Below are positions 30,491-54,960 of a stretch of 64,000 nucleotides of DNA, piece after piece. The notes below the pieces were generated by a model that saw only the letters and a program-made list of their open reading frames with translations, was not told the DNA's origin and made no database searches. The position numbers and the translations under genes are program-made. Numbering within the stretch: position 1 is the first letter of the stretch; every line of letters starts with the position of its first letter. The DNA lies in assembly GCA_016214905.1 (NCBI GenBank), contig JACRMQ010000006.1, positions 478,510-542,509 on the forward strand, in the 5' to 3' direction. This stretch comes from Ignavibacteriales bacterium (GTDB lineage: Bacteria; Bacteroidota; Ignavibacteria; UBA10030; SZUA-254).

Positions 30491-30563
<73 letters not shown>

Positions 30564-31429: not shown

Positions 31430-31782
31430 GGGGATGACATGGATTCGACGGGGATGAGAATGGTTAGAACGGCATCTCGTGCTCTCCGCGTAGCACGTAA
31501 ATAAAGCGGAAAACAATAAGTGCAGATTACAACTACGCACTGGCTGCTTAATTAAAGCAACCCATCCTATGTGATTATGCCCAATGAGTCATAATAGGGT
31601 GTCGCTTAAATTGGGATAGCTTGAAGACATTCTCAGGGTCATCAAGTGAAATTTTACTGAGATAGCTTGCAATGACTGAGTTCGCTCCGGAATTTGTAGG
31701 CAAACCTGTACAGAGCGGACTATTGATGTAAATGTTCTGGTGGTTTTCTCTTCGGACCGGGGTTCAATTCCCCGCATCTCCA
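31430..31782 (+). ncRNA. ssrA: tmRNA (SsrA), predicted tag ADYNYALAA
   Basis: The 5' end GGGGATGACATGGATTCGAC and 3' end GGTTCAATTCCCCGCATCTC form the tRNA-like domain; the acceptor pairs GGGGATG with CATCTCC. Between them lie pseudoknot-forming sequences. The tag reading frame starts at GCA 31522 and ends with TAA at 31549-31551, giving ADYNYALAA, which ends in the usual YALAA degradation signal. CCA is not encoded (CAA follows the discriminator). tmRNA rescues stalled ribosomes with SmpB, whose gene is not in the window. Confidence 0.95.
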
Positions 31783-31784
31783 CA

Positions 31785-31818
31785 ATGCTGTCTAAAAATA
31801 ATGACGGCATTTTTTTTT
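31785..31818 (+). terminator. Terminator of ssrA
   Basis: ATGCTGTC (31785-31792) pairs with GACGGCAT (31803-31810) over a 10-base loop, followed by an uninterrupted run of T. It separates ssrA from dapF. Confidence 0.85.
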
Positions 31819-49781: not shown

Positions 49782-51272
49782 CTAGTCTGCATCACCTTGG
49801 ATCATTCTTGCTGCATCACGATATAAGAAGGGGACCCAAAAATATGGTGTCGTTTTAGTTCCTCGAAGCTCAAAGAATCCTACTTCAACTAAACTGTTAG
49901 CTATCGCGAGAGCCTCTATTTCATTAACCTGCCAAATTCCTGCGAGAGTGCCAGAATATTGTTGTGTCTTTTCACCTGCTAATTTATCAATAAATGGACG
50001 CAACTTTGGATATTCTGCGAAAAGTGTTTGCGAAAGTCTTACATCTGAAATTTTTGGAAGTGCTTCTCTAAATGATACACTTGAAAAAATGCATTCTTGA
50101 TCAAGCTCTTTATCGCCAACTTCGAAGTGTCGAAGCTGCATCTCACGAGCAACGCTAAGTAAATGAATCAATTCACGAGGAGCTGTATGTCCAGTACCAT
50201 CTTTAGTGTGTCCAATCATCCAATCAAGAGTTTTTGGCTTTTTAAGTCCAACATCAACCTGTTTCGGAAATATTCTATAAAATAAAGTTTCTTGATTCGC
50301 AATAGAAGAGAAAACCTCATCTGGTTTGATAGAATAATGTGTGCAAATAGATTCATTGTTTACTGCACGTCGCAACATTAGGCTCATCAATGAAGAACGA
50401 TCCCACGAAATAGTTAAATGTCGGGTTACATGACTTGCTTCTCTAAAACCAGTTTTGGTAAGACGATTCCAAATATCGGTGCGAAGAAATATTTTAAGGC
50501 GAACATTGGAAAGGTTTGTTAGCTCAAGATAGTTGCGAAATAGGGCTCGAAGCGCATTTTCCTCTAATGAATCTGTTTCAGCAAAAGCAACATCGAGCCT
50601 ATCTAATAATATCCATACAGTGACACCCAATTTAGCAAATGCTTTATCGGCATTTTTCAGGAGTTCATTTACTGATTGTATAGATTGATCCGCTGCAATT
50701 GATACCTCATCGAAACTAATTTTCCCCGAGAAACCAGCGGGTAATCCTGTCATTGGATCAATTTTAATTTCGCCTTGTACCGCTGACGGACGAAAAACAC
50801 GTTTCACGTATTCAAATACATTCCTAAGCATCTTGGGAAGATTTGTCGTGCTTTCTAGAAGTTTTGCTTGTTCCAAATAATCTAGAACTGCAATAGCACT
50901 TGCATCATTTGCAGAATACTCTTTAAGTGTCGCACCGAGTAATGAGAGCAAATATAGTCTCCATAATCCGGTGAATTCACGTTCTGTAGTAGGCGGATCT
51001 TGCTGTAAATCTTTAAAGACAGGTGTACCTCGAGGTTGTTCAGCTGACACTACAATAACACCTTTATCAAGTAAATCTGATGCGCGTTGAATCAAGAGTG
51101 AGTAGAGTGCACTTTTTCCCGTACCTTTCGCACCATATATAATGTCAACGTCACCCGCAAAAGTACGCTTCCACTGATCTGTAGCTACAAAGTACCTCTC
51201 AAGTTCTTTGCTTTCTTCCTCAGCAACGCGGTGACCAAAATTTGCAGATTGTAGAACCTCTTGTTTAGTCAT
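49782..51272 (-). CDS. P-loop ATPase, Sll1717-type
   Basis: A 496-residue soluble ATPase. Walker A is YGAKGTGKSALYS (47-54 for the core) and Walker B is VWILLDRLDVAF near 220-231; the sequence between them is helical. The C-terminal half has arginine-rich segments (IFLRTDIWNRLTKTGF) and a winged-helix-like end (IEALAIANSLVEVGFFELRG). The start HRVAEEESKELERYFVATDQW and overall pattern fit the Sll1717 family of STAND/Orc-like P-loop ATPases, known from cyanobacteria and accessory regions of other bacteria. Function is not known; conflict or defence roles have been suggested for related ATPases. It stands alone. Confidence 0.68.
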   Translation of the reverse strand: MTKQEVLQSANFGHRVAEEESKELERYFVATDQWKRTFAGDVDIIYGAKGTGKSALYSLLIQRASDLLDKGVIVVSAEQPRGTPVFKDLQQDPPTTEREFTGLWRLYLLSLLGATLKEYSANDASAIAVLDYLEQAKLLESTTNLPKMLRNVFEYVKRVFRPSAVQGEIKIDPMTGLPAGFSGKISFDEVSIAADQSIQSVNELLKNADKAFAKLGVTVWILLDRLDVAFAETDSLEENALRALFRNYLELTNLSNVRLKIFLRTDIWNRLTKTGFREASHVTRHLTISWDRSSLMSLMLRRAVNNESICTHYSIKPDEVFSSIANQETLFYRIFPKQVDVGLKKPKTLDWMIGHTKDGTGHTAPRELIHLLSVAREMQLRHFEVGDKELDQECIFSSVSFREALPKISDVRLSQTLFAEYPKLRPFIDKLAGEKTQQYSGTLAGIWQVNEIEALAIANSLVEVGFFELRGTKTTPYFWVPFLYRDAARMIQGDAD

Positions 51273-51517
51273 ATACTTCCCTATTATTATATAACTTACT
51301 GGATATCTATTCTATTGCACAATTATTTGATTCGTAAAACAAAATTATGCAACCTTGTGGCTATAAATAATCAAATACAAATTCCTTAATCATTCTACGT
51401 CCACTTTTCTTCGTAACGTAATTTATGAATGCAAAACCAAAAGGTGGCAGAAAATGCAGGGGTAAAATACTATTCTTCTTTTAGAAAGTCAACTTGTTGA
51501 AGTGCGGCGAATTGGAA
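51273..51517. other. AT-rich intergenic region
   Basis: Between the P-loop ATPase gene and the hairpin at 51518 no gene can be read. The part nearest 51273 is the ATPase upstream region; no clear operator is seen. Confidence 0.4.
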
Positions 51518-51564
51518 GTGCGACTCACCTTCAAGATAGAATCACCCATGGAGGTGAGTCGCAC
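51518..51564. repeat. 13-bp-stem inverted repeat, copy 1
   Basis: Arms GTGCGACTCACCT (51518-51530) and AGGTGAGTCGCAC (51552-51564) with a 21-base loop. It ends 10 bases from the stop codon of the minus-strand lipoprotein gene. A second copy at 53587 has the same stem and loop lengths and one compensatory base-pair change. No U-run follows on the minus strand, so it is not a standard terminator. Confidence 0.8.
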
Positions 51565-51574
51565 ATTCACTTTT

Positions 51575-52678
51575 CTATTTCGAAATTATTTTCAAAGCGT
51601 TCACTCCATTGGCGCAGTAGATGATATCAATTTTTCCGGTTGATTCAACTACAACATTCGACGACTTTGATTTAATTGATACGGGAAGTTTTTCTGTCAC
51701 CAATGCACCCGTTTTATTTGTTGTGAGATATAATTCGGAGGTTGAAAGATTTGTGTAACTGATGTATGCCTTTCCGTTAACATCTGTGGCAATGCCTGCC
51801 TCGGTCCAATTAACTAAAGAATCTATCTTCGTAATCACACCGTTATTGTAAATATTCAAATATTTGTCGTCATAATTCCAATAAGGTATTAGCACCGAGC
51901 TGTTTGTTTTATTAATTGCAATATCGGGCGACCATCCTTTATCATCACCGGAACTCGGAACACCAACGATGATATTATTACTGCTCAAAGTGCCGGCTGA
52001 AGTGATCGTTTGAAGATGAAGTGTTCCTTCGCCGCCATGTTCATAGGCAACATAAACGTTATTGCTTGCATCTAAGGCAAGTCGTGGCCGCACATTAGCC
52101 CAATAAGAACCAATCCGTGCAGGACTGCTCCATGTACCTGAAAGGTTATTTGTATAAAGCAAATCTGTACCATCATTACCATAAGCGATATGAACTTTTC
52201 CTGTTGATGTTACAGCAATGCCACATCCGCTCAAGGACGACCCGACTGAATAAGCAATTTTTGTCTTGACCCACGCACCGCTTTTATTTGTTGCATATAT
52301 TATTGCTGAGGTGTCAGTTATCGTTTGTCCAACCACATTGTAAACGATATGAACAAATCCGCTTCCATCAACAGCTATATCGTTATAAACCGACATGGTT
52401 GTAGTTGTATCTTCAGGATGGATCATGGTTGTAACCCACGAGCCGGACTTATTAGTTGCATATTTTAAACCGAGGTTGAACGAAAAATATGAAACGTGTA
52501 TTTTATCGTTCGCATCTATTGCGGCTGAAATGTCGCCATTAGCCGCATTTACATTATCAATTGTTGAATTATCCACAATTGGATTATCATCGGAACTGCC
52601 GGTAGGACTGCTTTCTTTTTTAGAACAGCTAATAAGTAAAATTGAAACAAGAACGAGGAGATAGAAATAGGTTTTCAT
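51575..52678 (-). CDS. Beta-propeller-like lipoprotein
   Basis: A 367-residue lipoprotein with a clear lipobox (LVSILLISCSKK, Cys near 18) and a Ser/Asp/Asn-rich linker. The body contains repeated blocks of about 50-60 residues with patterns such as AAIDANDKIHVSYFS, IAVDGSGFVHIVYN, IAVTSTGKVHIAYG, LALDASNNVYVAYE and IATDVNGKAYISYT, typical of a six- or seven-bladed beta-propeller (sialidase/BNR-like). Function unknown; probably outer-membrane or periplasm facing. It is followed 10 bases later by a repeat hairpin. Confidence 0.75.
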   Translation of the reverse strand: MKTYFYLLVLVSILLISCSKKESSPTGSSDDNPIVDNSTIDNVNAANGDISAAIDANDKIHVSYFSFNLGLKYATNKSGSWVTTMIHPEDTTTTMSVYNDIAVDGSGFVHIVYNVVGQTITDTSAIIYATNKSGAWVKTKIAYSVGSSLSGCGIAVTSTGKVHIAYGNDGTDLLYTNNLSGTWSSPARIGSYWANVRPRLALDASNNVYVAYEHGGEGTLHLQTITSAGTLSSNNIIVGVPSSGDDKGWSPDIAINKTNSSVLIPYWNYDDKYLNIYNNGVITKIDSLVNWTEAGIATDVNGKAYISYTNLSTSELYLTTNKTGALVTEKLPVSIKSKSSNVVVESTGKIDIIYCANGVNALKIISK

Positions 52679-52867
52679 TTTTGAAAAAGTAATTGGTGAA
52701 TAAAATATTTTAAAATAGATTTAGCATTTTGAATATAAATAAAGGAATTCAATCGAACAACATGATTGCGAAGCAGATCACAAATAAAAAGTGCTACTAT
52801 CTTTTAAGGATCATAGCACTTGTTTTAAGTTGGACTAGTAATAAGTCTTCAAAAATATATAATCTTA

Positions 52868-53431
52868 CTAATTTTGATCCTCATCATCTACTACCTCTCT
52901 ATCAGATAGCCATGATAATAAATAAAATACTCCGAAGAAAAATGAAAACATAAAAGAAACAAGTGTAAGCTGCGAGGCATTTTGCTTTCTATTTTCTAAG
53001 TCGAATAATATTCTGTTCTTATTCTCAAGTTGATAAATATCGAATTGTCTGCCCATTCCTAGAATGGTTGTTAGGAGATTACGATGATAAATATAAACAG
53101 TATCTCCAATTGCAAGATCGGCTATAAAATCCCGATAATTGAAATTATCTGAAATTCGAAAATATTCTTGATATCCCTCGACATAAATTCGGAGTTCTCG
53201 GACGCTATGTTTGTAAAATGGTTTGCTAATTTTTGAAGTAACAACATTTTGAATAGAAATGATTTTACCTTTCACATAAAGAAGATCGATTTTCCTTATA
53301 CTCATCTCTATGAATTGACCAATCGTACAATAAATAAAAAACAATGTCACCGGAAGGAGTAGATATTTTCTACCAAAATCCCAATTTGACATATTAAACG
53401 AATTCTTTAAAAATTGATTAATGAATTTCAT
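52868..53431 (-). CDS. Two-TM membrane protein with DUF3592-like layout
   Basis: A 187-residue protein with one hydrophobic segment near 24-42 (YLLLPVTLFFIYCTIG) and another near 155-172 (LVSFMFSFFFGVFYLL), separated by a ~110-residue beta-rich domain (GKIISIQNVVTSKI, YRDFIADLAIGDTVYIYHR). This arrangement resembles DUF3592-like proteins. An internal ATG 39 bases downstream of the first could be the true start. No function can be given. Flanked by the lipoprotein and the ABC-2 permease genes. Confidence 0.55.
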   Translation of the reverse strand: MKFINQFLKNSFNMSNWDFGRKYLLLPVTLFFIYCTIGQFIEMSIRKIDLLYVKGKIISIQNVVTSKISKPFYKHSVRELRIYVEGYQEYFRISDNFNYRDFIADLAIGDTVYIYHRNLLTTILGMGRQFDIYQLENKNRILFDLENRKQNASQLTLVSFMFSFFFGVFYLLSWLSDREVVDDEDQN

Positions 53432-53586
53432 TAATATTTAATATTACTTAATGTATTTGGAGTTTAATCTTGGTTCTTTACATTTATTTAATAACATATA
53501 ATTTTTGTATTAAAAACAAAACTCCAACATCCTTGGATAATATTCTACCTCAGAAGTCGAAGCTTCAAATATTAATACAATATGCA

Positions 53587-53633
53587 GTGCGACTCACTTT
53601 CAGTGTAGATTCAAAATTGGAAGTGAGTCGCAC
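53587..53633. repeat. 13-bp-stem inverted repeat, copy 2
   Basis: Arms GTGCGACTCACTT (53587-53599) and AAGTGAGTCGCAC (53621-53633) with a 21-base loop; 13 of 21 loop bases match copy 1 at 51518. It also ends 10 bases from a minus-strand stop codon (ABC-2 permease). Confidence 0.8.
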
Positions 53634-53643
53634 ATATCTTTCT

Positions 53644-54960
53644 TTAAAAGACGTGTCCCTTTTTAAATTGCCAGATGCTGATGCTTGTTATCAGGACAGC
53701 TATGCCTATTAATATTCCAATGTGTGGAAGAATATCGAATATACCGGCACCACGCCAGAGAACCTGTAATATTCCATCCATTGACCAATAGACAATTGTA
53801 AACTTACTGATCGTCTGTATGAAATCGGGCATGAACGATGTTGGGAACCATGCGCCGCCGATGGAACTCATCGCCAGAATTAAGAACATTCCGTAACCAT
53901 TGGCTTGACCGGCAGTTCTGCTGATTGACGAAAGAAGCATCCCGAATGCCGTGCATGCTGTTGCGGCAGCAATAATGATAAGAACGAGATTAATAAAGTT
54001 GGAGAAAATATCAATCCGGTAAAGTAAGGCGCCTGCACTGAAAAGAATAAGAAGCTGAATGAAACCAAGCGACATGTTGTAAAGATACTTGCTCCAGAGT
54101 ATCTGAACACGTGAAATAGGAGAAGCAAGAAGCCGCAGTACAACGCCACTCTTTTTCTCTTCGAACAAAGCTGATGATGTGGCAGTGAGCGTGAACAATA
54201 GGAACATCATTGCCCAGCCGCCTACACTCCGCGTTGCCCAGGGGTTAGCGATGTCTTGCCCAACTAACTGCACTTTATCGAGTTGAAGTATATTTTGGAA
54301 GAAACTATTCTTAGCGCTATCACTTCCACCAGCCATTGACATAAGCGAATCAACCGGTGGATTTGTAATCCATTTCGGATCTATCTTGAAATATTTGCCT
54401 ACCGTCTTTGCAATTTCGTTGTTAAACGCTTTGCCAGAATCCAATCCCAAAAACTTTGTAGCTTGATTTTTCATTCCCTGCATAAAGATATCAGGGATTT
54501 CAGTCATTATTGTCTTTTGCAGCATACCATCTATCATCTGCATTTCGAGATCGTTCTTTGGATCGTAATAGAATTTCAATTTCAATCCGAAAGCTGTATC
54601 GGATAACGCATCAGAAGGAATCACAAGCGCCGCCGATACACTCCCCTTCCTCACAAAATTCTGAATGGAAGCAGTGTCAAATGGAATGCGCTTGTCATTT
54701 TCATCTTTGTACGTTTTGATGAGAACAAACGTTTTAGAAGAATCAAGCACCCGCTCGATTTTCTTCCCGATTGGAGATGAACTGTTATTCAGGAATGCAA
54801 TGTGAAGCTTGGTTGCTGTTCCACCTTTATTCAGATTTCCAAAAACGGCTCCCCAAATAATAATCAATGCGATCGGGATTATGAACGTCATCGTAACTGC
54901 GCGCCTGTCGCTCCAGAATAACTTATAATCTTTACTGATGAGTTGAAGAATTGTTTTCAA
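53644..54960 (-). CDS. ABC-2 type transporter permease
   Basis: A 438-residue inner-membrane permease of the ABC-2/YhfE-like type: one N-terminal TM segment (VTMTFIIPIALIIIWGAVFG), a large ~200-residue extracytoplasmic domain, then five TM segments in the C-terminal half (MMFLLFTLTATSSALFEEKKSGVVLRLLASP is split across the membrane edge). EEKKSG-x-x-x-RLL-x-SP is the family signature. It overlaps the ATPase gene by four bases and forms an exporter pair with it. Substrate unknown; drug or lipid export is typical. Confidence 0.87.
   Translation of the reverse strand: MKTILQLISKDYKLFWSDRRAVTMTFIIPIALIIIWGAVFGNLNKGGTATKLHIAFLNNSSSPIGKKIERVLDSSKTFVLIKTYKDENDKRIPFDTASIQNFVRKGSVSAALVIPSDALSDTAFGLKLKFYYDPKNDLEMQMIDGMLQKTIMTEIPDIFMQGMKNQATKFLGLDSGKAFNNEIAKTVGKYFKIDPKWITNPPVDSLMSMAGGSDSAKNSFFQNILQLDKVQLVGQDIANPWATRSVGGWAMMFLLFTLTATSSALFEEKKSGVVLRLLASPISRVQILWSKYLYNMSLGFIQLLILFSAGALLYRIDIFSNFINLVLIIIAAATACTAFGMLLSSISRTAGQANGYGMFLILAMSSIGGAWFPTSFMPDFIQTISKFTIVYWSMDGILQVLWRGAGIFDILPHIGILIGIAVLITSISIWQFKKGHVF

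Follow-up and report, generated by a model that had tools for sequence, protein, structure and literature searches.

Several Y1 transposase genes have been described in the company of repeats that differ from GTAG REPs. According to the TIRtron passages of PMC3733652, the repeats on the flanks of the RAYT-like gene in TIRtrons (TIRYT) have no relation to GTAG REPs; some of them are self-complementary and occur scattered over the genome, and a GGGGWSAS motif is described for some TIRs. The Bacteroidetes part of PMC6006769 defines a TnpA_Y1 subclass 2.6, whose gene has 'atypical secondary structures' lacking GT[AG]G on its flanks, with copies elsewhere in the genome. Its motifs are NH[LIV]H, WQ and YIH[QN]NP, and its HUH-Tyr distance has a median of 82 aa. 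For E. coli TnpA_REP, PMC8266576 states that activity needs a conserved mismatch in the stem.

Here we analysed a stretch of 64,000 nucleotides, the window, from an Ignavibacteriales bacterium. It carries two hairpins that are very probably mobile palindromes of the RAYT/TIRYT type (TIRtron/REPtron), with the cognate transposase deduced from relatives. Both resemble leftovers of a mobile repeat of a known kind, the transposase of which can no longer be detected in this genome.

The palindromes and their family

Both palindromes (Table 1) consist of perfect 13-bp arms around a 21-nt loop, 47 nt in total, and their arms differ only at arm position 12, C-G versus T-A. Copy 1 lies 10 bases 3' of the minus-strand stop codon of the lipoprotein ORF (which ends at 51575) and copy 2 lies 10 bases 3' of that of the permease ORF (which ends at 53644). 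No U-run follows either hairpin. The stems, the loops, the one pair difference, the 10-base distance and the missing U-run had been reported in the initial annotation and, like its coordinates, were borne out on the window sequence. The claim that the pair is not due to chance held as well: 100 first-order Markov simulations gave a mean of 0.03 hairpins per window (arms of at least 13 bp, loops of 3-30 nt) and a maximum of 1, versus three in the real window, copies 1 and 2 and one AT-rich hairpin, which rules out a chance hairpin. A known RNA family was likewise ruled out, since Rfam at gathering threshold returned only the tmRNA and one tRNA in the window and no described RNA family at the hairpins. 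Copy 1 is flanked by AA and AT, as are most family copies, and the flanks of copy 2 have the same orientation.

Table 1. Positions of the palindromes and of neighbouring and other features, counted from the first nucleotide of the window
Feature	Position	Strand	Remarks
47-nt palindrome copy 1	51518-51564	+	arms 51518-51530 and 51552-51564; loop 51531-51551
47-nt palindrome copy 2	53587-53633	+	arms 53587-53599 and 53621-53633; loop 53600-53620
Candidate relic of older palindrome arm	51502-51509	+	GTGCGGCG after TTGTTGAA; 6/8 bases match at orthologous position
Lipoprotein-like ORF, 367 aa	51575-52678	-	between the two palindromes; no Pfam or NCBIfam match
Orphan ORF, 187 aa	52868-53431	-	between the two palindromes
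ABC-2 permease	53644-54960	-	PF12698; anchors the orthologous site in relatives
tmRNA	31430-31785		Rfam
tRNA gene	30491-30563		Rfam

The exact-arm pattern, with a permitted spacer of 8-60 bases, was found nine times in the 3.3-Mb genome, every time spanning 47 nt; the reversed pattern, used as a control, had no match there. The 11-base arm occurs 22 times genome-wide, 18 times within exact palindromes and four times opposite a degenerate (mutated) partner arm at the 47-nt span. A covariance-model search of the genome, as proposed in the initial annotation, was run with a model built from 30 distinct copies and gave 29 both-strand matches at no fewer than 14 places. Among 60 genomes of relatives, the window's own included, seven contain the exact pattern and 25 have covariance-model matches at E 0.01, weak ones included, among the matches listed. 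Copies thus exist genome-wide and in relatives, the reverse of the double absence that had been named as speaking against the proposal. In 84,980 species genomes the pattern was present in 26 stretches, all of them in MAGs with Bacteroidetes/Bacteroidota, Ignavibacteriae/Ignavibacteriales or Chlorobiaceae in the title. The MAG FK_Sedi_A_Bin.46 (JAMCQL01; L131, L135-L137, L140, L141, L146) has eight places with the same arms and a span of 60 or 61 nt. A viral origin was ruled out, the viral contigs searched containing no stretch with the pattern. Text searches of the literature with the arm GTGCGACTCAC and with RAYT plus Ignavibacteri yielded no account of either, and absence from print is claimed for these searches only; matches on other topics were judged by title (orexin receptors and yeast Cdc48 for the arm).

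Across the 30 copies, 15 pairs were standard in 97.3% of cells. The arms begin GTGC, and the one freely varying arm pair was CG in 14, UA in 8, GC in 7 and AU in 1, without a mismatch in any of the 30. Just inside the 13-bp stem, C.A, T.G, A.G, G.G or C.C stood in 29 copies and a Watson-Crick pair in one, and inside this mismatch position CA/TG pairing came next in most copies. The flanks were AA/AT in 23 of 30 copies, with AA before and A after the element as the inner bases, and the outer bases were A...T in 29 of 30, with close variants otherwise, counts that are favoured by turning every copy to its best-fitting orientation. Around the same or similar arms the whole span was 29, 47, 60/61 or 76/77 nt, depending on the lineage. 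A central GANTC site in the loop was ruled out as a defining feature, only 14 of the 30 copies having it. Outer arms CTCCGGTATCTC were also rejected as part of the element; four of their five genome copies adjoin 47-mers, the fifth being apparently unrelated, and we read them as terminator-like hairpins that receive 47-mers (L008/L208). At L001, L008, L009 and L208, 47-mers lie within or against terminator-like arms AAACCTCCGGTATCTC...GAGATACCGGAGGTTT, which suggests insertion into hairpin loops.

For nine of the 13 own-genome copies examined, a stop codon precedes the palindrome by 4-36 bases; these distances are approximate, the ORFs (at least 90 aa) having been called mechanically. Since the distances vary, the identical 10-base gap of copies 1 and 2 is partly coincidence.

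The orthologous site and transposases in relatives

In the relative G006, the permease protein is 97% identical to that of the window and copy 2 has its ortholog at G006:C32:12478-12524. The two genomes are homologous across the permease and into the adjoining palindrome; the homology breaks off at that point and is found again from the far palindrome on. Where the window has the lipoprotein and orphan ORFs, two 47-mers in G006 bracket a 192-aa Y1/HUH transposase ORF (Pfam Y1_Tnp, 43.6 bits against a cut-off of 23). Copies 1 and 2 of the window are a pair that forms the ends of a single unit, which the initial annotation had missed. A second G006 transposase gene, 3 kb away, likewise lies between two 47-mers, and around each gene the 47-mers are 654-659 bp apart. 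The scores for the NCBIfam model 'REP-associated tyrosine transposase' were 71.5 (the 192-aa ORF) and 67.1, under the curated cut-off of 80. At the orthologous site both loops and flanks of the palindromes are in direct orientation; at the second gene this holds for the loops, one copy having an ambiguous flank. In G004, a transposase of 60% identity has a palindrome with these arms on either side, 76/77 nt long. The transposase motifs are NHYH, YIHRNP and FE, with a HUH-Tyr distance of 57 aa. Pfam at E 0.01 gave no HTH domain, and a PDB sequence search at E 0.01 gave no match, which we counted against the RAYT/TIRYT reading.

A hairpin of at least 10 bp within about 220 bases was present on both sides of 15 of 30 transposase genes, on one side of 8 and on neither side of 7; the 30 genes are 31 rows after removal of the duplicate L026_4550 (= L091), two rows being halves of one gene. 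A tree was calculated from 27 of 32 rows, leaving out the duplicate, L102 and three short rows. The three transposase genes with the family arms grouped together with a support of 93/85, just below the star threshold of the tool, and the genes with AACCTTG-type arms formed a separate clade (99/98). Sister genes of the same-arm clade carry CTGCCACGCACC, TTGCCACGCACC or TCCGAC-type arms. Palindrome arms follow the transposase tree. G012 contains the family arms, but its transposase (55% identical) has different ones, and G001, G002 and G020 contain family copies and only distant transposases (40% identity or less). At L105 (G009:C64), 1416-1464, a related palindrome whose loop holds another palindrome, CCCGCCGAAAGGCGGG, adjoins a transposase split in two frames.

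Transposase and palindromes were found in the same genome in G004 and G006. The window's genome had no Y1_Tnp match and no match with the G006 protein as query. A RAYT remnant between the two palindromes was rejected, as tblastn with the G006 protein matched the window only elsewhere, at E 3.0 and 8.9. Because this genome lacks a detectable family transposase and those of G001, G002 and G020 are only distant, we infer the mover of the palindromes from relatives, and the copies of this genome appear to be non-autonomous leftovers.

One ortholog of the lipoprotein gene (77%) lies across the ABC operon in G001, and another (66%) is in G030. The orphan ORF was matched in one of the 60 genomes, its own. 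No GTGCGACTCAC palindrome follows the permease stop codon in G001, G002, G008, G009 or G020, and the G001 permease site has neither palindrome. The candidate relic GTGCGGCG, just outside copy 1, sits exactly where the G006 palindrome starts; copy 1 may therefore be a newer insertion than this putative older arm. An apparent loop inversion between the permease-site copies of the window's genome and G006, seen by eye only, is not claimed here. The minus-strand ORF 49782-51272, adjoining copy 1, encodes a P-loop ATPase that matches the Sll1717 family model NF047389 with 202 bits and, weakly, an anti-phage protein model (40 bits versus a cut-off of 370). In G001 this side of the site is occupied by an ORF that looks HNH-like by eye, in G006 by a different one, so the spot beside copy 1 looks variable.

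Other sites point to gain or loss and to decay. The copy at C6:373802-373848 has no counterpart in G001: the orthologous site there (727 aligned columns, 80% identity) carries some 11 extra non-palindrome bases, so that the exact ends of the element are not fixed by this comparison. The copy at C7:748471 occupies the same site as G001:C7:117430; their loops differ, and a terminator-like outer hairpin encloses each of them. The copy at C9:2403 (G000:C9), orthologous to G006:C52:69250, is decayed. Since it decayed although some other orthologous pairs have intact arms, we make no claim of selection on the arms. In G006:C29 (L157, about 791-873), two degenerate family copies overlap in part to form a dimer beside the ortholog of the own-genome site C4:186261.

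Probable mobile palindromes and alternative explanations

A dispersed repeat family, associated with transposase genes and present at some sites in one relative and absent in another, is what we observed. As E. coli TnpA_REP and IS608 suggest by analogy, the near-perfect 47-nt palindromes would be recognised as single-stranded DNA hairpins by a cognate Y1 HUH transposase, which would cleave next to the AA...AT flanks and copy them into intergenic sites. Relatives have the transposase gene between two palindromes, and G006 retains this arrangement at the orthologous locus; in the window's genome, with no family transposase detected, the palindromes, at least 14, would be non-autonomous copies left behind, and the interval between copies 1 and 2 now holds the lipoprotein and orphan genes.

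The initial annotation had left the choice between a structured 3' element and a small mobile palindrome. Dispersed copies, their presence or absence in relatives and the bracketed Y1 transposase of G006 argue for the second; the first is not needed, the permease being without such a hairpin in five relatives. That the hairpins are kept as RNA, for transcription termination or for protection of the mRNA 3' ends of upstream genes, would agree with the nine copies past stop codons, with strong stems (−27.5 and −28.3 kcal/mol) and with the compensatory pair across 30 copies. We consider it quite unlikely nonetheless, given the missing U-run at both window copies and the decay of the orthologous copy at G000:C9, and it leaves the two-fold symmetric arms and the transposase bracketing unexplained. 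After insertion, the palindromes may have a secondary 3' RNA role.

The contents of the interval could also have changed in one event, in which the two palindromes in direct orientation served as substrates for a transposase that moved or exchanged what lay between them, so that the lipoprotein and orphan genes took the place of the transposase gene. Pairs of 47-mers would then be the ends of exchangeable cassettes in which a now-lost Y1 transposase swapped its gene for passengers, and a REPtron would have turned into a carrier of ordinary genes. The homology with G006 does end at the palindromes on both sides, the interiors are wholly different, and the lipoprotein gene sits elsewhere nearby in G001. 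However, this concerns a single locus, the candidate relic arm and a re-inserted copy 1 suggest stepwise turnover, and ordinary gene turnover may suffice, as the far side of the site has different genes in the window's genome, G001 and G006. The lipoprotein gene of G001, moreover, has no flanking palindromes except a short terminator-like hairpin, and we hold such an exchange to be unlikely. A genome without RAYT would also fit if the palindromes were a protein-binding operator or the solo terminal repeats (MITE) of an unrelated DNA transposon, and the bracketing of transposases a coincidence. This is highly improbable, since three transposases have a palindrome on either side within a few hundred bases and sister transposases carry related arms.

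Comparison with known systems

Taken as mobile palindromes, the elements have two features of RAYT-associated palindromes in the wide sense: they bracket the transposase gene twice in G006 (47 nt) and once in G004 (76/77 nt, same arms), and they are dispersed in intergenic positions (13 contexts examined). A third feature, a transposase in the same genome, applies to G004 and G006 and not to the window's genome. As in the canonical REPtrons covered by the REP/RAYT portions of PMC2817692 and PMC8266576, a Y1 transposase gene is bracketed by genome-repeated palindromes with compensatory stem changes and a conserved stem mismatch; the likeness of this mismatch to that of the E. coli TnpA_REP substrate is an analogy. 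Canonical GTAG REPs, however, carry the tetranucleotide GT[AG]G 5' at the foot of the hairpin, where we found AA or close variants, and a size of 20-40 bp, compared with 47 nt in nine of nine exact own copies and 29, 60/61 and 76/77 nt in sister classes. Their two REPs are inverted around the RAYT gene, whereas those of the orthologous-site RAYT in G006 are direct. The same portions of PMC2817692 and PMC8266576 give usually more than 100 copies, in contrast to the at least 14 places found here; the 21-nt loop is a further difference. With tag, size and inverted orientation lacking, the palindromes are not canonical REPs.

With this finding, the RAYT/REP/TIRtron group gains a family of palindromes, present in MAGs labelled Bacteroidetes, Ignavibacteria or Chlorobi, that combines conserved arms with a lineage-specific loop length. 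Matched pairs of transposase and palindrome could be used to test hairpin recognition without a GT[AG]G tag, and one orthologous locus is available with and without the transposase.

The published systems that come closest are the TIRtrons with self-complementary TIRs and the atypical structures of the Bacteroidetes subclass 2.6, as far as the respective passages of PMC3733652 and PMC6006769 describe them. With the TIRtrons of those passages, the family shares a RAYT-like gene flanked by dispersed self-complementary non-GTAG repeats; it differs in lacking GGGGWSAS and in its palindromic arms GTGCGACTCAC in direct orientation. Flanking structures without GT[AG]G and further genomic copies are common to subclass 2.6 as outlined there, but its motifs are replaced by NHYH and YIHRNP and its distance by 57 aa. 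The motifs of TIRYT subclass 2.1 (NH[YF]H, FQ, Y[IV]HLNP, C-terminal HTH) are present in part only: NHYH fits, FE stands for FQ and YIHRNP for YIHLNP, and Pfam at E 0.01 gave no HTH. In our best reading, the palindromes would work like the REPs of a REPtron, by analogy, and form a new family of a known kind.
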